IMG/VR virus record: IMGVR_UViG_3300038701_000942 | Coordinates: 1 to 58,784 of that record | DNA: 58,784 bases | Source: a virus | Reading direction: 5' to 3' (one strand) | Shown: positions 2,343 to 16,319 of the stretch, in pieces | Layout: each line of letters begins with the position of its first letter | How positions within the stretch are numbered: the first letter of the stretch is position 1 | The notes under the pieces: model-generated | The model's database searches: none | Seen by the model: only the letters and a program-made list of their open reading frames with translations | Told to the model about the DNA's origin: nothing | Translations under genes and position numbers: made by a program

Positions 2343-3373
2343 AATATACAGATCTAGACAGACAAGTTGGCATCCCAAAGTTCGACGAGTTCGACATCAT
2401 TGGGGATATGTGGTTGGCCAGAAAGTCCATGGCATCCGAACGACATGCTGAACGAGTACCTGGTACTGTACGCGGTGGCTCTATTGGTGCAATTATTGAC
2501 GGTACAACTCATGGGGTTTGTCATCGTAAGGCATACCTTAGATTCAATGGCATTGAGACTCCACTGGACGGACCAATTGATCTTATGGTGGCGCAGGGAG
2601 AGAAGAATGAAGACATCTTCTTGGAGGAGTTGAGACATAAATATAAAGATACCGAGTTTACAGTGAAAGATCAGACAGAGTTCGAGTGTTTGTGGGAATT
2701 ACCTGGAGACATAAAAGGCAGTGGGTCCCCCGATATCTGTATTTGGGACAAAGACAAGCCAGTAATTGGTATTGAAAACAAGAACATTGGATCTATTTCC
2801 AAAGTAAAGTCCACCCACTATGAGTTGAAGCCCGACCCCACTCACGTCATCCAAGCGGCAAACTATAGCCTGCGGATGGGGGACATGTATTGCGGCGGCG
2901 AACCACTACCATACAGACTTATCTATTCCAACAGAAATATGTACCACTTCTTCGCCATGTCTGAGGCAGTTAAGAAGATTATACTACAGCGTGGTTGGGA
3001 CATCAACTACAGCTTTGGCAGACCAATGACAATTGGTTGCTTTCACCGCGAGTACCTATTGGATTGGGATATCGATGGCCGACTCAGGTATTGGACTGCG
3101 GGGTATAAAGACTGGGTTGTCACTCACATTACCCGAGAGTCTATTGATCTTTACTATACAGTTGTGGCCAAGAAAATGGACACCAACAACACGCTTGGGC
3201 CTAAGCCTGCGATCAAACACATTGATGGATCAAAACATTATTCACAGTGTTCGTATTGTGATTTTAAAAACATCTGTGCAGACGGAGATCGACTTACCCC
3301 ACAAGAGTTCAAGGATCGCGGACAAATATTGGCTGCAGAAATGTGGAAAGAAAGATTGGACAAGGACACGTGA
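2339..3373 (+). CDS. Cas4/RecB-like PD-(D/E)XK nuclease with Cys cluster
   Basis: The 344-residue protein is read from a TTG start at 2339, preceded by GAAGGAG and overlapping the upstream stop by 4 nt. It carries the PD-(D/E)XK core as GSPDICIWD followed by GIENKN (Asp, then Glu-x-Lys). A lone cysteine (GVCHRKAY) near residue 62 and a C-terminal CSYCDFKNIC cluster match the four-cysteine Fe-S arrangement of Cas4/AddB-type exonucleases. Such enzymes process DNA ends in recombination and replication. The last residues may be altered, because an HNH gene starts inside its stop codon. Confidence 0.78.
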   Translation: MKYTDLDRQVGIPKFDEFDIIGDMWLARKSMASERHAERVPGTVRGGSIGAIIDGTTHGVCHRKAYLRFNGIETPLDGPIDLMVAQGEKNEDIFLEELRHKYKDTEFTVKDQTEFECLWELPGDIKGSGSPDICIWDKDKPVIGIENKNIGSISKVKSTHYELKPDPTHVIQAANYSLRMGDMYCGGEPLPYRLIYSNRNMYHFFAMSEAVKKIILQRGWDINYSFGRPMTIGCFHREYLLDWDIDGRLRYWTAGYKDWVVTHITRESIDLYYTVVAKKMDTNNTLGPKPAIKHIDGSKHYSQCSYCDFKNICADGDRLTPQEFKDRGQILAAEMWKERLDKDT

Positions 3374-3897
3374 ATCTGCCAGGATATAAATCAGTCTCTG
3401 AGTTCTCTAGGCAAGTTGGAATTTCCAACAGTGCTGCCTTACGACACGTCCGCCAAGGATATTGCGAGTGGCCCAGGAGGTCTAGGAATAATCAGACCAA
3501 GCACCCACTGTACTACACTTGGATAAATATGAAGCGCAGGGTATACGATGTCACACATCCCGCATATGCAAACTATGGCGGACGGGGAATACAGATATGC
3601 ACTAGATGGTATGTATCCTTTGAGAATTTCTGCAAAGATGTTGGTGAAAAGCCAAGACCTGAATATACTCTAGACAGAATAAATAACGAAGGTAACTATA
3701 CACCTGAAAACTGCCGGTGGGCTACAAGACTGGAACAAAACAATAATCGATCAGTTTGTGGCGGGACAATCTCAGTGGCACCTAATGGAAAGTTCAAAGC
3801 AGAGATAACTGTTTGGGGAAACAGGTACTACTTGGGCACACACTTAACCAAAGATCTTGCCCAAGAGAGTATTGATAAAATAACAAGGGAGAATTGA
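3370..3897 (+). CDS. HNH homing endonuclease (copy 1)
   Basis: The 175-residue product starts at GTG 3370, which overlaps the stop of the nuclease gene (GTGA). The order is an N-terminal module NLPGYKSVSEF ending in WPRR, then YGGRGIQICTRW, then the HNH core DRINNEGNYTPENCRWAT, and a C-terminal DNA-binding tail (GKFKAEITVWGNRYYLGTH) resembling AP2-associated HNH enzymes. It is a clear paralogue of the gene at 15762, sharing the N-terminal module, the NYxPxNCRWAT core and the GTG start. It is probably a free-standing homing endonuclease and contains none of the genome's abundant TTGGCC hexamers. Confidence 0.85.
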   Translation: MNLPGYKSVSEFSRQVGISNSAALRHVRQGYCEWPRRSRNNQTKHPLYYTWINMKRRVYDVTHPAYANYGGRGIQICTRWYVSFENFCKDVGEKPRPEYTLDRINNEGNYTPENCRWATRLEQNNNRSVCGGTISVAPNGKFKAEITVWGNRYYLGTHLTKDLAQESIDKITREN

Positions 3898-3898
3898 T

Positions 3899-4076
3899 AT
3901 TTGGCGGCGGTGCTGGAAGCTAGGGGGTCTCGTGACCCAAACCCAATCAGTGTAAAATACTTTAGGTTGGTACAGTTTAACCCCTTTGAGAAGCACTCGA
4001 AAGATAATAGAGAGTACTGAACAAGTGGAACCCCACAGTAAGTACATTGGCAGGAGTCGCGCCCTGCCCGCCAAAT
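3899..4076 (+). ncRNA. Candidate structured RNA closed by a 9-bp helix
   Basis: This gene-free stretch is closed by a perfect long-range helix, ATTTGGCGG (3899-3907) with CCGCCAAAT (4068-4076). Inside are GGGTC-TCGT-GACCC (3925-3938), GTGG-AACC-CCAC (4025-4036) and GCAGG/CCTGC (4050-4067). The last abuts the closing helix as a T-arm abuts an acceptor stem. No canonical T-loop or anticodon arm was found, so it is not called a tRNA. It starts two bases after the HNH stop, so it could instead be part of the mobile element or remnant sequence. Confidence 0.3.
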
Positions 4077-4126
4077 TACAAACCGACATCTAGTATACAT
4101 CTTTGTATAATAACTGGGAGCATGAA

Positions 4127-4315
4127 ATGAAGTATTTAATAATGGCAATATTTATGGTCGGCTGTGAATCGCAACTAGGTGGTTGCATATCATTGTCCGC
4201 CGTAACTAATCGCGCCACAGTATCTCAGCCATACTGTTGGGTATCTGGGCCAACCGAATATTGTGTATCGAAACGCATGCTACAGCCGGTAATTAAACCG
4301 GGCCACACTAAATGA
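4127..4315 (+). CDS. Small lipoprotein
   Basis: This 62-residue product starts at ATG 4127, behind GGGAG. It begins with a hydrophobic signal and a lipobox-like FMVGC with the acceptor cysteine at residue 13, followed by polar residues. Five further cysteines are present. It should be lipid-anchored in the cell envelope. The stop overlaps the next start (ATGA), coupling it to the PQ-loop membrane protein. No family was recognised. Confidence 0.65.
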   Translation: MKYLIMAIFMVGCESQLGGCISLSAVTNRATVSQPYCWVSGPTEYCVSKRMLQPVIKPGHTK

Positions 4316-4566
4316 CTATTGAAGCCATTGGCTGGTTAAGTGCAATCATGTTGGGATTGTGTGGTCTACCGCAGGCCATCCGTGCAGTTCGCACGAAGTC
4401 CATAGCCGGCTTAGATCCATGGTTCCTGGGAATGTGGACAGCAGGTGAGTTGGCCGGATTGGTTTATGTCATTGCGTTGGGCAATCCTGCGCTAATATTA
4501 AATTATCTTGTGAACTCGGTAGCCTGTTGTGTGCTGGTTATGGTCCACCTAGGAGAAGCTAGATGA
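4312..4566 (+). CDS. SemiSWEET / PQ-loop membrane protein
   Basis: The 84-residue protein has the hallmark PQ-loop motif LPQAIRAVRTKSIAGLD at residues 19-35. Three hydrophobic helices are visible (about 5-21, 38-57 and 61-79). This is the length and layout of bacterial SemiSWEETs, three-helix half-transporters that dimerise to move sugars. It may alter solute uptake of the infected cell. It is coupled by ATGA overlaps to the lipoprotein before it and to a small frame after it. Substrate and activity cannot be read from the sequence. Confidence 0.75.
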   Translation: MTIEAIGWLSAIMLGLCGLPQAIRAVRTKSIAGLDPWFLGMWTAGELAGLVYVIALGNPALILNYLVNSVACCVLVMVHLGEAR

Positions 4567-4700
4567 AGAAAGCATTGATAAGACAGACCTATCAACCATT
4601 TCCGGCACCGAGGAAATTGAACCGGAACTTGACAAATAGAATCTGGTATGACATAATGTATTCATTAACTGGGAATTATCCCACAAGACTGCAAAAGTAA
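4563..4700 (+). CDS. Possible 45-aa basic protein
   Basis: The ATG at 4563 overlaps the preceding stop (ATGA) and has AGGAG eleven bases upstream. The product is basic and has no recognised family. Its second half coincides with a strong promoter (4629-4657), so the coding sense may be incidental. Confidence 0.4.
   Translation: MKKALIRQTYQPFPAPRKLNRNLTNRIWYDIMYSLTGNYPTRLQK
4629..4657 (+). promoter_or_regulatory. Sigma-70 promoter with extended -10
   Basis: TTGACA (4629-4634) and CATAAT (4652-4657) are spaced by 17 bp, with a TG one base before the -10 box (TGA-CATAAT). It would start RNA near 4664, ahead of the gene at 4718. Confidence 0.8.
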
Positions 4701-4717
4701 TAGAAGGAATTTTAAGT

Positions 4718-5098
4718 ATGGCAAAGAAAGCAATCTCAATTAAACTGGAAGTCGCTGGTGAAAACAAGTTCGCACGCGAGAGCTGGTATGGACTTGGGCC
4801 GTTCACAGCGCAGCTCAATGACGACCAGTCATTGGCACTCGGGATTCCAAATTCCGATGTGCAGATTTGCACACCTGCCCAAAACGACTACGGGACATAC
4901 TACATGTTCAACATCGGCGGCGGCAAAGGATTCGCATCGGTCGTAGACCACGAGAAGTATGGCAAGTATTTGCGATTACGTCTTGGCGACAAGGTAGAAT
5001 TGCCAGCATCAGTTGTCGAAAAGATGAACTTCAAGCCAGGCAAAGCAGCCGGCAGCAAGAAGCCCGCAGCAGCAACCAACACTGGTTTCTGGTCTTAA
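4718..5098 (+). CDS. Hypothetical 126-aa protein, possibly DNA-binding
   Basis: It has its own promoter and an AGAAGGA ribosome-binding site. The body contains beta-rich segments (ISIKLEVAGENKFA, GTYYMFNIGGGKGFASV). It ends in a Lys/Ala-rich flexible tail (KPGKAAGSKKPAAA) with a terminal GFWS. Position at the head of the replication genes and the strong promoter would fit an abundant single-strand DNA-binding protein. The tail is basic rather than acidic, however, so that assignment is only a guess. Confidence 0.6.
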   Translation: MAKKAISIKLEVAGENKFARESWYGLGPFTAQLNDDQSLALGIPNSDVQICTPAQNDYGTYYMFNIGGGKGFASVVDHEKYGKYLRLRLGDKVELPASVVEKMNFKPGKAAGSKKPAAATNTGFWS

Positions 5099-5104
5099 TT
5101 ACTT

Positions 5105-5121
5105 CACCATCCAGGATGGTG
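5105..5121 (+). terminator. Hairpin after the 126-aa gene, weak terminator
   Basis: CACCAT (5105-5110) and ATGGTG (5116-5121) form a 6-bp stem with a 5-nt loop a few bases after the stop codon. A T-rich stretch (GTTCGTTTTC) follows after a short gap. It may attenuate transcription between the highly expressed gene and the polymerase group. Confidence 0.45.
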
Positions 5122-5198
5122 TGGTTCGTTTTCATGGTCCTCGGTCGGCATTGCCGGCTGGGGATTTCTCTATACTAGCGTATAAACTGGAGATCAAT

Positions 5199-5603
5199 AT
5201 GAAGTATGTAAAGAACAATGGCTCAGTTGATCTTACCAACATAGTGGTTCGTGGTGGCCTGCCAACCATGCCAGTAGGCAAGTACACCGGCATCTATGTT
5301 GGCCGAACTGTAGACAACGATGGCCTGCAATGGCTTACGGTCTCCACAACCAAATTGTCACATGTTGAACAGTCGGACATTGAAGTGCCCAACCTACAAC
5401 CTGGCCAACAAATCAACTTCGAAATAGAAGCACGTAACGGTGCCATTGCTTGCATGCAGGGCAATCAATACAAGTTGCAGAATATAGATCGTTCTGATAT
5501 AACAGACTGGATGGATGTGTCGGACTTGTATCGGTACATCAAAGACAACGAGATCGTGTTGGCCGAACCTAAGTTGTCAAAGTTGGAGAAGTTGGATGAG
5601 TGA
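5199..5603 (+). CDS. Hypothetical 134-aa protein upstream of DNA polymerase
   Basis: The start is ATG 5199 with TGGAG upstream; an earlier in-frame ATG at 5121 would include the hairpin. The sequence looks like a beta-barrel (GKYTGIYVGRTVDNDGLQW, GQQINFEIEARNGAIACMQG). It overlaps the polymerase gene by 7 nt, suggesting a replication role. No family was recognised. Confidence 0.7.
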   Translation: MKYVKNNGSVDLTNIVVRGGLPTMPVGKYTGIYVGRTVDNDGLQWLTVSTTKLSHVEQSDIEVPNLQPGQQINFEIEARNGAIACMQGNQYKLQNIDRSDITDWMDVSDLYRYIKDNEIVLAEPKLSKLEKLDE

Positions 5604-7041
5604 ATCTTACTACAGATTCTTAACCAAGCAATCGTTGACACCTCGCCAACCGCAGGTTGCCGTTGGTCTGGATGCAATAAAAGCCATCGAGTGGATTGTC
5701 CAACAGAACCCAACTGTTGTCCACTACGACCTTGAGACTACTGGGCTACAATACGCAGACCCCAACCAAATTATTACTAATGTTGGTCTTGCTTCGCCGG
5801 ACTGGCTTGTAGGTATCGACCTTATGCAGGTACCGTTTGAGTTGGCCCAGGAACTGTGGGCCTGGCTGGGTAAGCAGAATCTTGGGGGATTTAACCTGGG
5901 GTTCGACTTGGCATGGCCGTGGCGCACTCCGACCGGCGATGGACGCGTCAATCCCAATGTTGACTCACTCAAGGTTGCTTCGGATACCGCACTGTGGTTC
6001 CGGCTGCTGGCCACCGAAGGCCATTATCTACAGAATTACCAACTTGAGACATTGATATCCAACGTTCTTGGTTGGCCCGATGAATATCTTCAGAAAGACT
6101 GGTTGAAGCATGCACTGTCTTCCCGGGGATATAAGAAGTCCGAGATGTGGCGATTGGCCATTGCGGCCCCCACCGAATACACAACATACTGTGCATTGGA
6201 TGCCGAAGCTAGTTACCAAGCACACGGTGTATTCCAAGATGTACTCAAGAAGTATGGATTCGAAGGTCTCAATGTTTATCACGATTCCATTCTGGTTCCA
6301 AAAGTCAAGCGGAATATTAAGGCATGCTGCCACGGCATTCCAATCAATCGAGAAAAGTTAATTAGAAATCTGGAATGGTGCCACCGACGAATGCTGATGC
6401 TAGAAGCCAAGGCACTGGCACATCCCGAAATGCAGCCCATCATGGAAGAATACACCCAGGCCAAGTTGGCCAAGAGTCACACCTTGCGATACAACATGAA
6501 GAAGGTATGGGCCAAGGCATCAGACGAGCCATGGAAGTACCCAAACAAGTATCGCGTAGCATACGTAGATGACCCAGCAAAGCAGGCCAACTTACCAAAG
6601 TGGTGCCGAGAATTCGGTGGCAAATTCTACACAACTGAAACCCAGTTCACCATCAGCAACCAGGCCGCCGAGTGGCCACGATTCAATGTCAACTCGATAG
6701 CGGATATGAAATGGTTACTGTATACAAAGTGGCTAGAAGACGAGTACTCGGTGTGGCACCGTAACCCGGCCAACCCCAAAGCAGGTGGTTTACTGACGGT
6801 CCGAGTAGCCGGCAAAGAGTACCAACTTGACCTAACGAAATCAGGGGGTTTGCCAACAGGCGGTCCCATCTTGACATTGTTCGGAGAAATTGGTAGTATC
6901 TTAGACGAGTACAAGTCGTTACAAAAGTTGAGTGGCGACTTCCTTGAGAAGTTCGAAGCGGCATCACGCAGAACAGGACACATACACCCACAAGGGAAAG
7001 TACTGGGCACACAAACCGGCAGGATGTCCGGTGGTAACTAA
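5597..7041 (+). CDS. Family-A DNA polymerase, N-terminal gene (exonuclease and thumb)
   Basis: The 481-residue protein starts at ATG 5597 inside the previous gene's end. It carries a DEDD 3'-5' exonuclease domain: Exo I HYDLETTG, Exo II GGFNLGFDLAW, Exo III YCALDAEASY. The polymerase thumb follows and the gene ends at GTQTGRMSGGN then stop. That last segment is the conserved TGRxS motif that normally precedes the palm, so the protein stops in the middle of the polymerase core. The remaining palm and fingers (motifs A, B, C) are encoded by a separate gene at 8061, with four genes between. No intein half is visible at the break, so the enzyme is probably a two-chain polymerase. Confidence 0.9.
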
Positions 7042-7071
7042 CTAGTATCATTAACAAATATGGAGAATCCA

Positions 7072-7380
7072 ATGCCAGGACCAAGCTTAAAATTGTACTT
7101 TGCAGATGAAACCGAGTACCACACCGTACTCAAGATTGCAGCACAGCACGACATGACACTGCCGCAGTATGCTCATGCGTGTATCATCAGAACAACCAAT
7201 GAAGTGTTGGCCGAACGCGCAAAGATTCGAGAAGCCCAGGCCGCTCAGGTTGCCGAGTCTGCCGAGCCCACTGAGTCTGCCGAGCAACCCGAGACAGTCG
7301 TTGAACCCACTGAGCAGGCCGTTGAGCCATTGGCGCAATCTGAGGTATCGAATGCTAGTGAAGATACAGAAGTTAAATAA
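7072..7380 (+). CDS. Hypothetical 102-aa protein with acidic tail
   Basis: The start is ATG 7072, seven bases after GGAG. The ordered N-terminus (KLYFADETEYHTVLKIAAQH) resembles a small helix-rich domain. The last 45 residues are a low-complexity Pro/Glu/Ala/Val tail. It lies between the two polymerase genes and overlaps dUTPase by 29 nt in another frame. No family was recognised. Confidence 0.65.
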   Translation: MPGPSLKLYFADETEYHTVLKIAAQHDMTLPQYAHACIIRTTNEVLAERAKIREAQAAQVAESAEPTESAEQPETVVEPTEQAVEPLAQSEVSNASEDTEVK

Positions 7381-7771
7381 GAAAGCAGTGTTACCCCAGT
7401 ACGCTAAGTTTGGGGATGCAGCTGTAGATCTGACGGCTGTATCCAAGCGACACGTCGAGTACGGCAGGGTCAAATACGGCACTGGTCTGGCTATCGAGAT
7501 ACCGAACAATTATGTCGGTTTGTTGTTTCCCAGATCGTCGATATGCAAGACCGACCTGTTCTTGAGTAACTCGGTGGGCGTAATCGACAGCGGGTATCGT
7601 GGCGAGATCTCGATGGTATTTGGTCGCAGACCATATGGTGACGAATACGAGATCGGAGACCGAGTTGGTCAGTTGATTATTATGCCGTATCCCAAGGTGG
7701 AATTTGAAGTGGTTGACGCATTATCGCCGTCCGAGCGTGGCGACACGGGGTTTGGCTCCAGTGGAAAATAA
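7352..7771 (+). CDS. dut: dUTPase (deoxyuridine triphosphatase)
   Basis: The 139-residue protein starts at ATG 7352 inside the end of the previous gene. All five trimeric dUTPase motifs are present in order: AAVDLTA, PRSSI, GVIDSGYRGEI, GDRVGQLIIMP and RGDTGFGSSGK. The enzyme hydrolyses dUTP to dUMP and pyrophosphate, lowering uracil incorporation and supplying dTMP synthesis. Its place between two halves of the polymerase links it to replication. Confidence 0.93.
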   Translation: MLVKIQKLNKKAVLPQYAKFGDAAVDLTAVSKRHVEYGRVKYGTGLAIEIPNNYVGLLFPRSSICKTDLFLSNSVGVIDSGYRGEISMVFGRRPYGDEYEIGDRVGQLIIMPYPKVEFEVVDALSPSERGDTGFGSSGK

Positions 7772-7889
7772 ACCAACAGCCGAAGAATTGGCAAAAGTAC
7801 TTGAGTACATTCGTGACAACTGGGAGAACGCATGGATGCGTTACATTATCCGCGAGTCCCTAAAGGGGAATTTTGACTGGAGAGATTAA
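7761..7889 (+). CDS. Hypothetical ~42-aa protein
   Basis: The reading frame opens at GTG 7761 within the end of dUTPase and ends in TAATG with the next gene. The product is helical and charged (PTAEELAKVLEYIRDNWENA). The start is uncertain because the upstream sequence lacks a convincing ribosome-binding site; coupling to dUTPase is likely. Confidence 0.5.
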   Translation: MENKPTAEELAKVLEYIRDNWENAWMRYIIRESLKGNFDWRD

Positions 7890-8074
7890 TGAAGTACACT
7901 GTACGCTGGACACTGGCATTCAGTACCGATATCATCGAGTGTGCCCAGGATGCCGATTCGTTGGAACAAGCTGGCCTTATGTTGTCTGATATCCTGGCGT
8001 CCGCACATACATTAGGTATTCAAGATTATCTTGTGGAATCTGATATCAAGGAATACGACGATGACCTACAGTAA
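7889..8074 (+). CDS. Hypothetical 61-aa protein
   Basis: It starts at the ATG of the TAATG junction at 7889. The product has a beta-alpha pattern (MKYTVRWTLAFSTDIIEC, then SLEQAGLMLSDILA) and an acidic end. It overlaps the second polymerase gene by 14 nt. No family was recognised. Confidence 0.6.
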   Translation: MKYTVRWTLAFSTDIIECAQDADSLEQAGLMLSDILASAHTLGIQDYLVESDIKEYDDDLQ

Positions 8075-9959
8075 TCCCCTTGAGCAATTACAATCTGACT
8101 GGTGGTCTGAATATTCCCAGAATCCAGATAACGACTATTACAAGATTAATGCCCAGCAGTTGGCAAAGACGCCAATACTACTTGATTGTATTGAAGCCCC
8201 TGAGGGATACAAGTTTGTTCAACTGGACTACTGTTTCACGGAAGGAACTGAATTATTAACTAAACGCGGGTGGCTTGAGTTTTCTAAGCTAGACTCAGAA
8301 GACTTGGTGTGGCAAGTAGAGCCTTACTCATTAATAGGTAGCTGGGTAAGACCTAAGCGTGTAATACACAAACATTACAGTGGACCTATTTATACATTCG
8401 GTAACCGACGGGGTAAACTTGAAGTAACATATGGACACAGTATGGTATGGGCAGGACCTCAAACCCACCAAAGGGAAGATAAGAAAAGATTACGAAAGTT
8501 TCAGAGAGCTGAGAACGGAGTACCTAGTACGGCAACCACAATGCTAACAGCAAGCAACTCAAACACCCGGTCATATTATTCCGAACAGGAGATATGGATG
8601 GCCTGCATGTTGGCTGCCGACGGGAGCAGAACCCCAAGCGGTAGCTATACAATAGAAGTCAGCAAGCCACACAAAGTAGCCCAGATTGAAAAACTGTTAG
8701 GACGAGCTGGCACTGTTAGACCAGCCCGACAAAATCAAACCAGAGATTCTCACAGTTGGTATGGTATCAAATTTGAGTCGAAACTATTGTGCCCTGAAAC
8801 CAAAGCACTAAAGTTAAATACTTTAGGATCAAATCAAGTCAATGTATTTGTTGCTGCTCTTAGCTTCTGGGACAGCAGTAAAACGGGATACAAAACCGAA
8901 AGGTTTAACTTTTGCTCAACAAACGAAGTCGAAATTGACAGCATACAAGCATATCTAGTAACTTCTGGGTATGAAGCCAGGAAAACCAGCGGCAACTCTA
9001 AGTCGCTGAAGCACAAAAAGCCATTTTACTTGTCTATTAGAAAGTCTGCCGGAATAAGACTTCGCAGAAACAAAGATGAGCAGATATCAGACTACACTGG
9101 AATGGTTGGCTGTGTTACAGTGGATCATGGATTTATCCAAGTGCGAAGAGATGGACAAACATTTATCTCAGGCAATTGCGCCCTTGAGCCGACAGTGTTG
9201 GCTGAATTCTCGCGTGACAAATGTTATCACGAGATATATGCTTCCGGTAAGCCCCACGAGGTTTACTTGTACGTAGTATGCAAATTACTGGACCCCAATG
9301 GCAAGATCAATGCGGTATATAACCTCGACAATCCCACTGAAGAGTCGGTCGCCAAGACCAAGAAGATGTTCAAGACCGAACGCACAATGGGCAAGATCTT
9401 CCAGCTTATGTCTACATATAAAGCCGGCGCACCAAAGATACATCGACAGTTGGTATTATCAGGCGTAGACATTACCCGAGAAGAAGTAATCGAGATACGC
9501 AAGAAGTACTGGGGGCCGGACCTGTTTGCCGGTATTGTTGACTACGAAGATAATTTGTTGGCCGAAGTTGATCAGCGTGATGGGTGGTTCTTCAATGGCA
9601 TGGGCCGACCATTTGCTGTGACTGACAAGAAACGCAAGGATGTAGTGAACACACATACGCAATCCACTGGGCACGACTTGACCGACCTGATGATTCTTGA
9701 GACCGAGAAGAATGTTGTGGCCAACCAACTGGATTGTATTCCGATCATACCAGATTACCATGATGAAACTATTTGGATGGCCCCAATTGACGATGCCGAA
9801 TCCGCAGCCAATGCAATGTCGGACGCAATTGACGCAGTCAATTCTATGGTAAACTTCAGTATCCCACTCAAGGGAGAACCGGAGATCACAGATAACTTTA
9901 CACAATTTAAGATGCCAGACCCAGTGGGCTGGTATGCGGAGAAATTAAATGACAAGTGA
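8061..9959 (+). CDS. Family-A DNA polymerase, C-terminal gene (palm/fingers) with intein
   Basis: The gene starts at ATG 8061, with AAGGA eight bases upstream. After 57 residues ending FVQLDY it is interrupted by a 315-residue intein. The mature sequence then continues as CALEPTVLAEFS, restoring motif A (LDYCALEP). Motif B is RTMGKIFQLMSTYKAG and motif C is the catalytic YHDE. The segment YYKINAQQLAK near residue 30 continues the template-binding motif left off at 7041, so this gene completes the polymerase begun at 5597. Residues 1-25 look like an added N-terminus for the separate chain. The 3' end overlaps the RNA ligase gene. Confidence 0.9.
   Translation: MTYSNPLEQLQSDWWSEYSQNPDNDYYKINAQQLAKTPILLDCIEAPEGYKFVQLDYCFTEGTELLTKRGWLEFSKLDSEDLVWQVEPYSLIGSWVRPKRVIHKHYSGPIYTFGNRRGKLEVTYGHSMVWAGPQTHQREDKKRLRKFQRAENGVPSTATTMLTASNSNTRSYYSEQEIWMACMLAADGSRTPSGSYTIEVSKPHKVAQIEKLLGRAGTVRPARQNQTRDSHSWYGIKFESKLLCPETKALKLNTLGSNQVNVFVAALSFWDSSKTGYKTERFNFCSTNEVEIDSIQAYLVTSGYEARKTSGNSKSLKHKKPFYLSIRKSAGIRLRRNKDEQISDYTGMVGCVTVDHGFIQVRRDGQTFISGNCALEPTVLAEFSRDKCYHEIYASGKPHEVYLYVVCKLLDPNGKINAVYNLDNPTEESVAKTKKMFKTERTMGKIFQLMSTYKAGAPKIHRQLVLSGVDITREEVIEIRKKYWGPDLFAGIVDYEDNLLAEVDQRDGWFFNGMGRPFAVTDKKRKDVVNTHTQSTGHDLTDLMILETEKNVVANQLDCIPIIPDYHDETIWMAPIDDAESAANAMSDAIDAVNSMVNFSIPLKGEPEITDNFTQFKMPDPVGWYAEKLNDK
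8232..9176 (+). mobile_element. Intein in polymerase motif A
   Basis: This is a 315-residue in-frame insertion. It begins with Cys1 (CFTEGTELLTKRGWLEF), has block B VTYGHSMVW, ends in FISGN, and is followed by Cys+1 of the extein. A LAGLIDADG-type homing endonuclease domain is suggested by IWMACMLAADGS and the later VAALSFWDSS. Splicing would join LDY to CALEP directly at the catalytic Asp motif. The base composition is plainer than the flanks, and no TTGGCC/GGCCAA occurs in it. Confidence 0.92.
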
Positions 9960-12016: not shown

Positions 12017-12236
12017 TAACATACGTAAAGCACTGATCTTGGCAATACAAGAACTGCACAGAATTCAGCTACCAGATTATGTAGTTAGAAATGATGGGGG
12101 CTTATCAATGTATTCAGAATTAAATAAACGCATGAGATGGGCTAAGGATGCTGAGAGAAAAATTCTAGATATGACAGGAATGGATTATTATAATCTAACG
12201 ATTGATCCTCAAGACCTTGTGAGAAATCACAAATGA
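12006..12236 (+). CDS. Hypothetical 76-aa protein
   Basis: It overlaps both neighbours (11 nt upstream, 4 nt downstream), consistent with translational coupling to the helicase. It is helical and basic at the start (NIRKALILAIQELHRIQ) with a MTGMDYYNLTIDP end. No family was recognised. Confidence 0.6.
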   Translation: MINDNIRKALILAIQELHRIQLPDYVVRNDGGLSMYSELNKRMRWAKDAERKILDMTGMDYYNLTIDPQDLVRNHK

Positions 12237-14533
12237 CCAGCACAACTTCTATACTGGATTACTTTCCATATGATAAACCGCGCCCTAGTCAGCTCAAGGT
12301 ATTGCTGTGGGTCGAGAAGAATTGGGATCGGTTCGACCTGATGGTCCTTCAGTGTCCCGTGGCAGCCGGTAAATCTGGTCTTGCGGTGACTATTGCCAAC
12401 TGGGCCAACCAAGAACATGGTGTCCTTACGGGCATCACAACGCCGGACAATGTACTGGTTAATCAATACAAGCAAGATTTCAATCTATTGACGTTGCCGT
12501 ACCGCAATTCATTTGCCAGCGGTGATCTGTATGTTCAGGCCAAGAACGAGTTCAAAGCGGCCCCCCTAAAGGTGATGAATAATTTCACACTACTGGCCAA
12601 TCGTGCCTACAGCGATCTGCAAATTATGGATGAGTGCTTCCCAGGAGATGTGGAAGTTCTTACTAATTTTGGATTTAAAAGATTCGATGAGCTAGGAACA
12701 CATGAGAAGGTTGCTCAGGTTGACTCCAACAGCTTAGAACTAGATTTTGTTATGCCTAGTCGTTATGTAAAAAAGCAGGTTGTAGATCATGATATGGTTC
12801 GTTTTTCGTCTACTAAGAATATCAACCTAACGTGTACGGCAAAGCATGCCATGCTTGTGACTAACAGGCTCAACGGGATCACTAGTAAGTACTACGCCGA
12901 TGCAGTACCTCTAAGTACTAGCCAAGTGTATCGAGCAGGAATCAGCACACAGTTTGGTCCTGAGACTATGTCCTCTTGGCAGAAGCTTATGATTGCCACG
13001 CAAGCAGATGGATGTATTACAGGGAAATCAAACATCCAATTCTCTTTTTCCAAGCAACGCAAGATAGATAAGTTCAAAGAATTAATGGCTGAAGGCAAGT
13101 TTGAATATAGTGAAGTAAAAGGAAAACCAGTAAACGGAGCATGCCAAGCCAAACGTAGGTTTATTGTTCGCAGAATGCAAGGTGCCAGTAAGGTATTGTG
13201 GGATCATTTTGAGATACAGGATATATCAGCTAACTTAGGTAGAGAAATTTTAGAGTATATGGTAGAGTGGGACGGCTGCAGAATCAATAAGAATCAGTTG
13301 TACTTTTCTTCTGTCATAAAGACCAATGCAGACTTTTACCAAACAGTGGCCTGCTTGTCTGGATACTCCTCAAACATGACAGTACAAGTAGATCCTAGAA
13401 AGGATACATTTTCCGATGTACACAGACTTTTCATTTCCAAGGATCGTAGTTCGGTGGGCCTGTCTACTTCCAAAAGAACTTCTCATAAATACAGTGGAAA
13501 TGTATTTTGTGTAACTGTACCCAAAGGCAATATTATAGTTAGACAAAAAGGTAAACCCATAGTAGTTGGAAACTGCCATCAACTTATTCCTATGTTGCAG
13601 GATTTCGAAGGTATAAAGATATGGCAACACCTCGAAGGCTATCCTAAGACTATTAAGACTGTGGCAGATCTGCTGGTTTGGGCCGGCTCGCGTGGCCCAA
13701 AGGACAAGCTGGGCAAAAAGATAACCAAACTGGTGTCAAGAAACCCCAGTGATTATGTGGTAGTCCAAGACTCGGAACTTTATCGCGGACGCATACGTGA
13801 CTACTTGCGTATATATCCACTGACACCCAAGAATAATAAGCCCATATTGTGGCCACCCAGCAAGGTAAAGAAGTTGATACTTATGTCGGCTACCATTGCC
13901 AAGCCGGATATCGAAGATTTGGGGCTACATAACCGGCGTGTGGGGTACATCGAAGTTCCTTCGGATATACCGCCGGCTAATCGACCATTTATATTTGTTG
14001 GCCAAGGCAGCATGGGCCGTGGTAACGCACGGGAAACATTACCAAAGATCATGACTAAGTTGCGAGATATTCACAACGGCAACGGGGGCCGTGGGATGTT
14101 GCATACCACTTACAGTTTGTCTTCGAGTATGCAAGCCAAAGGTGAAACACCTGCCTTGATATTCCACGGCATAACAGATAAGCGTGATAAATTAAATGCT
14201 TGGATGTACGACCAGTCGGATAAACGAACTTTTGTTGGCTGCGGCTTGACAACTGGGCTAAACTTGAAGTATACTGTGTGTAATTGGCAAGCCATTATGA
14301 AGTGTCAATTTCCCGATTTGGCTGATCCAGCGGTTGCAGCCAAGGCAGAACGCAGCCCCGAGTGGTATGCTTGGACGACCATCAAGCAAATAGTACAGGC
14401 ATATGGCCGCGTCTGCCGAGCACCAGACGACCTGGGGGCAACATACATGCTAGACAGTGATTTTATAAGATTGTATACAGAATATAAACACCTGTGGCCA
14501 ACCTGGTTTACAGAAGCCCTGGAGATACGATGA
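12233..14533 (+). CDS. DinG/XPD-like superfamily 2 helicase with intein
   Basis: The start is ATG 12233 at an ATGA junction. Motif I is CPVAAGKSG (residues 41-49). Motif II reads MDE-CHQL after removal of a 313-residue intein, giving a DECH box. Motif III-like LILMSATI and motif VI QAYGRVCRAPDDLGATYMLD follow, the last being typical of Rad3/XPD/DinG helicases. No iron-sulfur cysteine cluster is obvious, so it is a minimal version. It probably unwinds DNA 5'-3' during replication. It is followed directly by an exonuclease gene. Confidence 0.87.
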   Translation: MTSTTSILDYFPYDKPRPSQLKVLLWVEKNWDRFDLMVLQCPVAAGKSGLAVTIANWANQEHGVLTGITTPDNVLVNQYKQDFNLLTLPYRNSFASGDLYVQAKNEFKAAPLKVMNNFTLLANRAYSDLQIMDECFPGDVEVLTNFGFKRFDELGTHEKVAQVDSNSLELDFVMPSRYVKKQVVDHDMVRFSSTKNINLTCTAKHAMLVTNRLNGITSKYYADAVPLSTSQVYRAGISTQFGPETMSSWQKLMIATQADGCITGKSNIQFSFSKQRKIDKFKELMAEGKFEYSEVKGKPVNGACQAKRRFIVRRMQGASKVLWDHFEIQDISANLGREILEYMVEWDGCRINKNQLYFSSVIKTNADFYQTVACLSGYSSNMTVQVDPRKDTFSDVHRLFISKDRSSVGLSTSKRTSHKYSGNVFCVTVPKGNIIVRQKGKPIVVGNCHQLIPMLQDFEGIKIWQHLEGYPKTIKTVADLLVWAGSRGPKDKLGKKITKLVSRNPSDYVVVQDSELYRGRIRDYLRIYPLTPKNNKPILWPPSKVKKLILMSATIAKPDIEDLGLHNRRVGYIEVPSDIPPANRPFIFVGQGSMGRGNARETLPKIMTKLRDIHNGNGGRGMLHTTYSLSSSMQAKGETPALIFHGITDKRDKLNAWMYDQSDKRTFVGCGLTTGLNLKYTVCNWQAIMKCQFPDLADPAVAAKAERSPEWYAWTTIKQIVQAYGRVCRAPDDLGATYMLDSDFIRLYTEYKHLWPTWFTEALEIR
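12635..13573 (+). mobile_element. Intein in the helicase DECH box
   Basis: This 313-residue insertion begins CFPGDVEVLTNFGFKRF, has block B NLTCTAKHAMLV, and ends CVTVPKGNIIV then PIVVGN before the extein Cys. Two degenerate LAGLIDADG motifs (LMIATQADGCI and ILEYMVEWDGC) mark a homing endonuclease domain. Splicing joins MDE to CHQL, so the insertion splits the ATPase box that the host protein needs. It contains no TTGGCC/GGCCAA hexamer. Confidence 0.93.
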
Positions 14534-15321
14534 AGAAGCCAAAAACATTGATATTCGACCTTGAGTCGAGCCCTAAGACTGCATACGTCTGGGGACTGTG
14601 GAACCAGAATATTGGTATCAACCAAATTAAAGATGACATGTACATCCTAGACTGGTCTGCCAAATGGTTAGACGACGAATATGTCTACAGTGACTCGTTG
14701 CATTACCACAAGCTGTGGGACAAAGAGCCACAGAATGACCGCATCATTGTCGAGTCTGCGTGGGAAATGTTTGACCAAGCTGACATCATTGTCGGCCACA
14801 ACGTCAAACGATTTGATATTGCCACCATGAATTCTCGGTTTGTCCAATTAGGCATGCGCCCCCCTAGTACGTTCCAAGTAGTAGATACACTAGCCATTGC
14901 CAAGCGCAGAATGAAGTTCACTAGTAACAAGCTGGACTTTATTGCACAAGCACTGGGGGTTGGCCAGAAAGTACAGACTGGTGGATTCCAGTTGTGGGCC
15001 GACATCATCGAGAACCATGACCGCAAGGCATTCGATCTTATGGTAGAATACTGCGAGAATGACGTATTCATCACTGAAGAAGTATACAAGATTCTCAGGC
15101 CGTGGGATGACAAGCACCCGTCAGTTGTTATTGCCGGAGATCTCAGCAGGCCACGCTGTAACGCCTGTGGCTCGAATAAAATACACAAGCGCGGGTTTCA
15201 CTATACGCCTACGCAGACATATCAGAAGTACAACTGCGTCACATGTGGACACAACATGAGATCCCGTATAGCCGAGAAACGTACGATAGAACAAAAACGT
15301 AACTTATTGCGGAGCAATTAA
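14530..15321 (+). CDS. DEDD 3'-5' exonuclease with C-terminal zinc ribbon
   Basis: The 263-residue product starts at ATG 14530, overlapping the helicase stop. Exo I is IFDLESSP, Exo II is VGHNVKRFD, Exo III is YCENDV (DEDDy spacing), as in PolB-like proofreading exonucleases. The last 60 residues hold a zinc ribbon (CNACGSNKIHKRG, then YNCVTCGHN). Because the polymerase already has its own exonuclease domain, this second enzyme probably acts in recombination, repair or host DNA breakdown. Confidence 0.83.
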   Translation: MKKPKTLIFDLESSPKTAYVWGLWNQNIGINQIKDDMYILDWSAKWLDDEYVYSDSLHYHKLWDKEPQNDRIIVESAWEMFDQADIIVGHNVKRFDIATMNSRFVQLGMRPPSTFQVVDTLAIAKRRMKFTSNKLDFIAQALGVGQKVQTGGFQLWADIIENHDRKAFDLMVEYCENDVFITEEVYKILRPWDDKHPSVVIAGDLSRPRCNACGSNKIHKRGFHYTPTQTYQKYNCVTCGHNMRSRIAEKRTIEQKRNLLRSN

Positions 15322-15546: not shown

Positions 15547-15789
15547 ATGCCCATTTACGAATTCCGCTGCGAGAACTGTAGCAAGACCCAGGAACATATT
15601 GTGAAGCTGTCAGAAGCGGACACCTTCGAACCCAGCAAAGACTGCTGTGATAAGCCAGAACCGAAGCGGTTCATTGGCAAAGTCAACATCAAAAAGGGTG
15701 CCAGCTGGGGACCAGGTAAGGGGAATTGGCTTATTCCATTGATATTATTAGGAGAATCGGCGTGGAGTTACCTGGCTACAGCAGTATAG
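15547..15789 (+). CDS. FmdB-like zinc-ribbon protein, C-terminus altered by HNH insertion
   Basis: MPIYEFRCENCSKTQE at the start and a second Cys pair (DCCDKPE) are typical of FmdB-family zinc ribbons. After GASWGPGKGNW the protein runs on for about 21 hydrophobic residues that overlap the start of the inserted HNH gene. Removing the insertion between the two copies of GGGGAATTGG makes the original end GKGNW followed by TAATG, the start of RNase H. The present tail is therefore read-through of the mobile element. Confidence 0.8.
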   Translation: MPIYEFRCENCSKTQEHIVKLSEADTFEPSKDCCDKPEPKRFIGKVNIKKGASWGPGKGNWLIPLILLGESAWSYLATAV

Positions 15790-16309
15790 TAGAGTTCTGC
15801 AAAGAACAAAGCATACCCTACATGACCACAGTTAATGCGTTAAAGCGAGGATACAGCAAGTGGCCACGTCGGACTATATCTGGTCAAAGCAAGAACCCAG
15901 CCTACAAATGTTGGGAGAATATGGTTCAACGAGCAACAAACCACAAAGTCTCTGGAGCACACAATTACTGCGGAAGAGGAATCAAGGTTTGCGATAGGTG
16001 GCGCGTATCCTTTGAGTGGTTCCTAGAGGACATGGGATCACGCCCAAGCAGGCGACACAGTATCGACAGGATCGACGTTGACGGCAACTACGAACCTGGT
16101 AACTGCAGATGGGCAACACCTTCAGAGCAAGGCATAAACAAGAGATATATCCGGGGCCGGCCCGGATCAATAGGAAGGTGTGCATCCGGAAAATGGAGAG
16201 CCCAAATATCTAGAGACAACAAAACATACCATCTTGGTACACATGTTACAGAAAATCAGGCAGAGCAAGCTATTGAGGACTTTTTAACAGAAGAACGTGG
16301 GGGAATTGG
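15720..16309 (+). mobile_element. HNH insertion flanked by 10-bp direct repeats
   Basis: GGGGAATTGG occurs at 15720-15729 and again at 16300-16309. Collapsing the two copies removes 580 bp carrying the HNH gene and its ribosome-binding site (AGGAG at 15750). It also restores a FmdB gene ending in TAATG that overlaps the RNase H start, matching the spacing style of the rest of the operon. Confidence 0.75.
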
Positions 16310-16319
16310 TAATGCTTAA
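15762..16319 (+). CDS. HNH homing endonuclease (copy 2)
   Basis: The 185-residue product starts at GTG 15762, seven bases after AGGAG. The N-terminal module ELPGYSSIVEF to KWPRR, YCGRGIKVCDRW, the HNH core DRIDVDGNYEPGNCRWAT and the C-terminal KTYHLGTHV tail parallel the copy at 3370 closely. It is a free-standing homing endonuclease. Its last codons lie in the right-hand direct repeat and overlap the RNase H start. Confidence 0.87.
   Translation: MELPGYSSIVEFCKEQSIPYMTTVNALKRGYSKWPRRTISGQSKNPAYKCWENMVQRATNHKVSGAHNYCGRGIKVCDRWRVSFEWFLEDMGSRPSRRHSIDRIDVDGNYEPGNCRWATPSEQGINKRYIRGRPGSIGRCASGKWRAQISRDNKTYHLGTHVTENQAEQAIEDFLTEERGGIGNA

Follow-up and report, generated by a model that had tools for sequence, protein, structure and literature searches.

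Does a virus whose family-A DNA polymerase is divided between two genes still make one polymerase? The question is raised by a record of IMG/VR (IMGVR_UViG_3300038701_000942), of which the whole stretch of 58,784 nucleotides, called the window here, was analysed. A preliminary description of this DNA had proposed that the break in the gene implies a polymerase of two chains. The break proved to be real and recurrent, and neither an intron nor an intein half was detected at it. The two chains are probably translated independently and assemble non-covalently into one family-A polymerase. That the two chains of the window are translated separately, that the intein is spliced out, and that the chains assemble and are active is inferred from sequence comparison.

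Results

The features of the locus are summarised in Table 1. Gene 1 had been described as a gene at 5597 that ends after TGRMSGGN. The end was confirmed, but the start is at 5596, and 5597 is out of frame. The fold resumes in gene 2 at YYKINAQQLAK and then motif A, as had been described. These are residues 26–36 of gene 2, which follow a leader of 25 residues. The break was also rightly placed inside one continuous fold. However, its place is not strictly between the thumb and the palm; the palm itself is cut, after the conserved Arg of TGR and ahead of motif A. Neither the unbroken relatives nor gene 2 of two other split records, L067 and L079, have the leader. The leader of the window gene 2 is unlikely to have an essential role. 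The idea that it serves as a docking element in a general mechanism was dropped, because L067 and L079 are without such a leader.

Table 1. Features of the split polymerase locus, with positions in the window.
Feature	Position	Strand	Evidence and remarks
Polymerase gene 1: 3'-5' exonuclease domain, thumb and first palm segment	5596..7041	+	481 aa; phrog_17 DNA polymerase, 4.8e-21
TGRMSGGN, final eight codons of gene 1	7015..7038	+	holds the conserved TGR Arg; break directly after
Gap gene A, acidic 106-aa protein	7060..7380 (possible start 7072)	+	no Pfam or PHROG family match
Gap gene B, dUTPase	7352..7771	+	Pfam dUTPase, 3.2e-18; phrog_135, 2.5e-45
Gap gene C, small ORF with GTG start, overlaps dUTPase end	7761..7889	+	sequence; weak as a gene
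Gap gene D, 61-aa ORF, overlaps gene 2 start	7889..8074	+	sequence
Shine-Dalgarno-like AAGGA	8048..8052	+	8 nt ahead of the gene 2 ATG
Polymerase gene 2: remaining palm and fingers, motifs A, B and C, plus intein	8061..9959	+	632 aa
25-codon leader of gene 2, MTYSNPLEQLQSDWWSEYSQNPDND	8061..8135	+	helix predicted, low confidence
Complete 315-aa intein in motif A, extein VQLDY / CALEPT	8232..9176	+	LAGLIDADG-like motifs by eye; phage intein matches

The two products were compared with the DNA_pol_A profile (PF00476), of which the curated cut-off is 34.3 bits. Gene 1 alone scored 18.1 bits and gene 2 alone 29.9 bits, both under the cut-off. When the exteins were joined and the intein was removed, a single stretch scored 69.9 bits, above the cut-off. 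The joined protein was aligned end to end with the unbroken relatives, and the seam adds only two or three residues. Its identity to these relatives is about 26–32%. Measured over the polymerase against each of the 11 other records described below, the window reaches 26–31%, and the relatives are thus distant. The residues of exonuclease motifs I–III are on chain 1 (D45, E47, N100, D104, Y198, and D202) and are kept in all of the four split records. The Pfam exonuclease model matched the window weakly (0.029), below its cut-off. The residues of polymerase motifs A, B, and C are on chain 2 (D512, E517, R582, K586, Y594, H708, and D709) and are kept in the same four records. The alignment columns 512, 517, 582, 586, 594, 708, and 709 are invariant across 12 records and comprise the Asp of motif A, the R-x3-K...Y of motif B, and the His-Asp of motif C. 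The Arg of TGR, which we take to be the equivalent of R668 of Klenow touching the primer terminus, is on chain 1. Chain 2 contributes motif A and the Asn/Gln residues that come after the Arg. Therefore, the primer site would be built by both chains. No second polymerase of family A, B, or C (including PF00136 and PF07733) was found in the 58.8-kb record, which is possibly a fragment.

The intact PolA of the related record L016 was modelled with AlphaFold. The model has a pLDDT of 84.8 and matches solved Pol I structures, namely those of phage G20c (7r0k, Z 31.4) and Bacillus. Its only internal segment with a pLDDT below 50 is residues 455–471, and the break point, residue 469, falls within it. 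Because the model was built on a shallow alignment, which may account in part for the low confidence in this loop, the loop is used as supporting evidence only. In the AlphaFold model of gene 2, the polymerase part is good, and the intein and the leader are poor.

The relatives were gathered by a motif-A DNA pattern and then by alignment-based scans, which gave 11 other usable records. The same loop position is cut in four of the 12 (the window, L067, L079, and L020), a count that is not a census because the records were fetched by motif searches. The other eight (L014, L016, L017, L069, L070, L072, L019, and L084) are unbroken at the site. The seam of the window reads TGRMSGGN-stop / YYKINAQQ. 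In L067 it is TGRIAGGGD-stop / MSINITQQPK, and the gap holds a lytic transglycosylase gene (Pfam SLT, 8e-12). In L079 it is TGRLGGGSND-stop / MSKINIQN, with a gap of about 1.7 kb and several other small ORFs. In L020, TGRCSGG is followed by an 18-residue tail, and CQQLPK comes after a 31-residue lead-in; the gap has a 71-codon ORF. Thus, the cut is shared and the gap contents differ. The polymerase of L020 has a second cut further on, adjoining an endonuclease-VII-like ORF, and what appear to be split inteins are inserted at other places of PolA in L019 and L072. No other family-A polymerase was found in the records of L067, L020, and L079. The gene order of nuclease, PolA, and helicase is common to the related records wherever the contig extends. 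No cultured phage of this polymerase clade was found. Single-protein searches with gene 1 or gene 2 against viral contig and phage sets returned nothing usable or mainly inteins, and a pattern search could not be built on the alignment with distant phage polymerases because of its diversity. The polymerases of Thermus P23-45 and Flavobacterium immuto, which appeared as two features in the hit table, are really single genes.

The number of fissions was approached with phylogenetic trees. L020 is nested within an unsplit clade with a support of 100/98-100, and a single clade of the window, L067, and L020 was rejected (p 4.7e-6). One origin for all of the splits was thereby ruled out for L020; judged from the trees, its cut arose separately. 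A single clade of the window, L067, and L079 is compatible with the data (p 0.23 for the polymerase and 0.17 with the nuclease and the helicase included), and these three may go back to one fission or to more than one. Since L020 stands apart and the clade of the other three is neither rejected nor shown, the number of fissions is two to four.

These results bear on the possibility of a decaying polymerase pseudogene in a phage that relies on the replicase of its host. In the family trees the longest branch is that of the window, a pattern that relaxed selection could produce. However, both reading frames are long and open, and all of the catalytic residues are retained in both halves. In addition, the same split form is found in the strongly diverged window, L067, and L079, whose polymerases share 27–35% identity. 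There are two cases, an old split enzyme that has been kept and a site that has been hit repeatedly, and both argue against a dead gene. Decay is therefore considered very improbable, and a working enzyme of two chains is preferred.

The gap between the two genes (7042–8060) is 1,019 bp long and holds four plus-strand ORFs. The dUTPase among them, already named in the preliminary description, was identified by both Pfam and PHROG. The gap ORFs gave no match to an endonuclease family, and no homing endonuclease gene was thus found in the gap. Base composition shows no abrupt step there, and the gap genes overlap one another and gene 2 like those of a normal operon. The window as a whole holds two HNH genes, which lie outside the gap (3343-3897 and 15726-16319), and two inteins.

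The gap with its four genes might be a self-splicing or trans-splicing intron, or a part of one, so that one polypeptide would be made after RNA splicing. Group I introns are known from the PolA genes of phages. One of them, in PolA of Vibrio phage JSF10, served as a positive control and was recovered (5.5e-9) by the same kind of search. A permissive Rfam search for the group I intron (RF00028) found none in the window gap at E values up to 5, and Rfam found none at the breaks of L067, L079, and L020 at E values up to 1. A degenerate split intron could escape a model. However, gene 2 has its own ATG with an AAGGA ahead of it; a match of at least 5 nt at similar spacing precedes 3.3% of the ATGs in the window. 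In L067 and L079, the start codon of gene 2 sits at the seam itself, and the gap contents vary among the four records. An intron is thus very unlikely. Taken together, the lack of an intron match, the AAGGA and ATG of gene 2, its overlap with the preceding ORF, and the start codons at the seams of L067 and L079 suggest separate translation of the two chains.

Neither half of a split intein was found at the break. Gene 1 ends in the extein TGRMSGGN with no intein N-half, and the 25-residue leader at the start of gene 2 shows no resemblance to an intein C-half. The earlier statement that the break is free of an intein half and an intron therefore holds, with the Rfam search negative at four breaks and the control intron detected. 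The 315-residue intein in motif A was missed in that description. Its signatures are CFTEGTELLT with Cys1, VTYGHS (TxxH) in block B, and a C-terminal GN / Cys+1, in which Gly precedes the final Asn at the position where His is usual. Because of this Gly its splicing is not certain, but it is likely. It is complete, internal to gene 2 and 32 codons past the seam; therefore, it is unable to join the two genes. As it interrupts motif A, chain 2 would also need protein splicing. An intein at the same motif A site, 43% identical to that of the window, is present in L084, where the polymerase is one unbroken gene. Therefore, the intein need not accompany the split. The split chains of L067 and L079 have no intein either.

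Discussion

The following course of events is proposed. A phage gene for a family-A polymerase with a 3'-5' exonuclease would have undergone fission in the glycine-rich palm loop. Gene 1 would give a chain with the exonuclease, the thumb, and the first palm segment up to the Arg of TGR, and gene 2 would be translated from its own start within the same operon. Chain 2 would first excise the intein from motif A. It would then supply the remaining palm and the fingers with all of the polymerase catalytic residues. The chains would associate via the surfaces that are in contact in an uncut polymerase of this fold, and the pair would work as a single enzyme.

The two genes could also act as separate proteins that do not assemble, for example as a free exonuclease and a palm/fingers protein. 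An exonuclease domain could fold and be active without the rest of the polymerase, and the phage has a second exonuclease gene (14530-15318; phrog_403, 9.7e-86). Family-A polymerases use the thumb and the primer-binding site, as known from the structure of Pol I. Chain 1 retains the thumb and the Arg of TGR, and chain 2 on its own would be without a thumb and a part of the primer-binding site. Separate action is accordingly very doubtful. An assembly artefact or a chimera, which comes to mind with an IMG/VR virus record judged from a metagenomic contig alone, is extremely improbable, because the same loop is also interrupted in L067, L079, and L020 with different gaps, no intact copy was found in these three records or in the window, and the gene overlaps and base composition at the gap are those of an ordinary operon.

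The assembly of the two chains is therefore kept as the preferred reading. The split may have originated from mobile DNA that was inserted into the loop and later replaced by ordinary phage genes. The two HNH genes and two inteins of the window make such an origin plausible, but neither a group I intron nor a split intein nor a resident homing endonuclease was found at the break, and it is therefore only a guess. A wider proposal is put forward tentatively. The palm loop may be a preferred fission site that was cut at least two times, and one lineage may have retained the two-chain enzyme over a deep divergence in which the inserted genes were exchanged. It would then be a stable two-subunit family-A replicase, of which chain 2 in the window also needs intein splicing. 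We hold this to be possible at somewhat less than an even chance. If the chains assemble, the break marks a site beside the primer terminus where polymerases of family A, to which Taq and Klenow belong, can be split in nature, and it offers a direct test of how far the core tolerates the loss of covalent continuity. One cut site recurring in diverged phages also provides a natural series of intact, intein-bearing, and split forms in which the change of an essential gene into a multi-subunit enzyme can be studied.

Family-A phage polymerases had been described as normally one polypeptide, but a split one is not without precedent. Such an enzyme was published for the OM43 phages MEP401 and MEP402 (OP830906 gp13/gp15; PMC10580990), and a split family-B polymerase for Aeromonas phage 25 (PMC2988022). 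Split phage polymerases are thus already known; the present case differs in the exact cut, the gap contents, and the intein, and also in that one cut is seen in several diverged records alongside records with an intact gene. Most related group I metagenomic genomes are likewise split, and the authors raised a possible intron in MEP401 (PMC10580990). As in the window, the exonuclease and the N-terminal part are in one gene of MEP401, and motif A onwards is in the other. However, the break of MEP401 is about 20 residues later than that of the window, just before motif A: gp13 ends in NLQNFDGEIKTLFLSRYGE and gp15 starts with MILNADAKALEW. Its gap is one small ORF and its motif A has no intein, whereas the window has four ORFs in the gap and an intein in motif A.

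The products of the split gene 43 of Aeromonas phage 25, 43A and 43B, co-purify and show polymerase activity; the split associates with a seg homing endonuclease in phage 25 or with an untranslated spacer in 44RR (PMC2988022). The 43A/43B pairs of these phages resemble the window in having a replicative polymerase as two chains and are a precedent for function, although their polymerase family is unrelated to the family A of the window. The ribonucleotide reductase NrdA of phage Aeh1 is split by mobE as genes-in-pieces (PMC2988022). It is also a phage enzyme cut in a critical region, and it is still functional. In contrast to the window gap, where none was found, the split of Aeh1 still houses a homing endonuclease gene. 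The PolB of MIJ3 is a fractured gene with a split intein (PMC6892783). Like the window polymerase, it and the PolA of L019 and L072 are replication enzymes in two ORFs with an intein involved. In MIJ3, L019, and L072, however, the intein itself is split and would rejoin the chains covalently, whereas the intein of the window is complete and lies inside gene 2.

Polymerase genes in other loci

The polymerase gene of L020, a relative in the same polymerase clade, lies in at least three pieces together with one interrupted intein (3100-7261). Its pieces 2 and 3 each have their own start with a Shine-Dalgarno sequence upstream. The family-A DNA polymerase (PolA) genes of two further relatives in the clade, L019 (2710-6232) and L072 (4659-7624), are apparently broken by split inteins. 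The layout in both is an intein N-half, an HNH endonuclease ORF and an intein C-half, and the insertion sites differ between the two.

Two DNA polymerase I genes are annotated in Vibrio phage JSF10 (1531-5312). A true split was rejected here because a group I intron match (RF00028) separates the two genes, and JSF10 is thus an intron case. The loci L029, L044 and L045 each match family-A polymerase at two distinct places, with a few kb between them.

Other features of the window

The helicase gene holds the second complete intein of the window. Judged from the sequence, its insertion site looks like a DEAH-like box of the helicase (MDE/C...GN/CHQ). Sequence comparison showed that this intein and the polymerase intein of the window are related (22% identity). 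The replication region is flanked by two free-standing HNH endonuclease genes. The 3'-5' exonuclease gene is a second one, in addition to the exonuclease domain of polymerase gene 1. A gene for a collagen-like protein is located near the left end.

Additional features of the window
Feature	Position	Detail
Collagen-like protein gene	120-596	Gly-X-X repeats
HNH endonuclease gene	3343-3897	PHROG match, about 1e-40
Helicase gene	12233-14533	complete intein at 12635-13573 (313 aa)
Second 3'-5' exonuclease gene	14530-15321	phrog_403 (DNA polymerase exonuclease subunit), 9.7e-86
HNH endonuclease gene	15726-16319	PHROG match, about 1e-42
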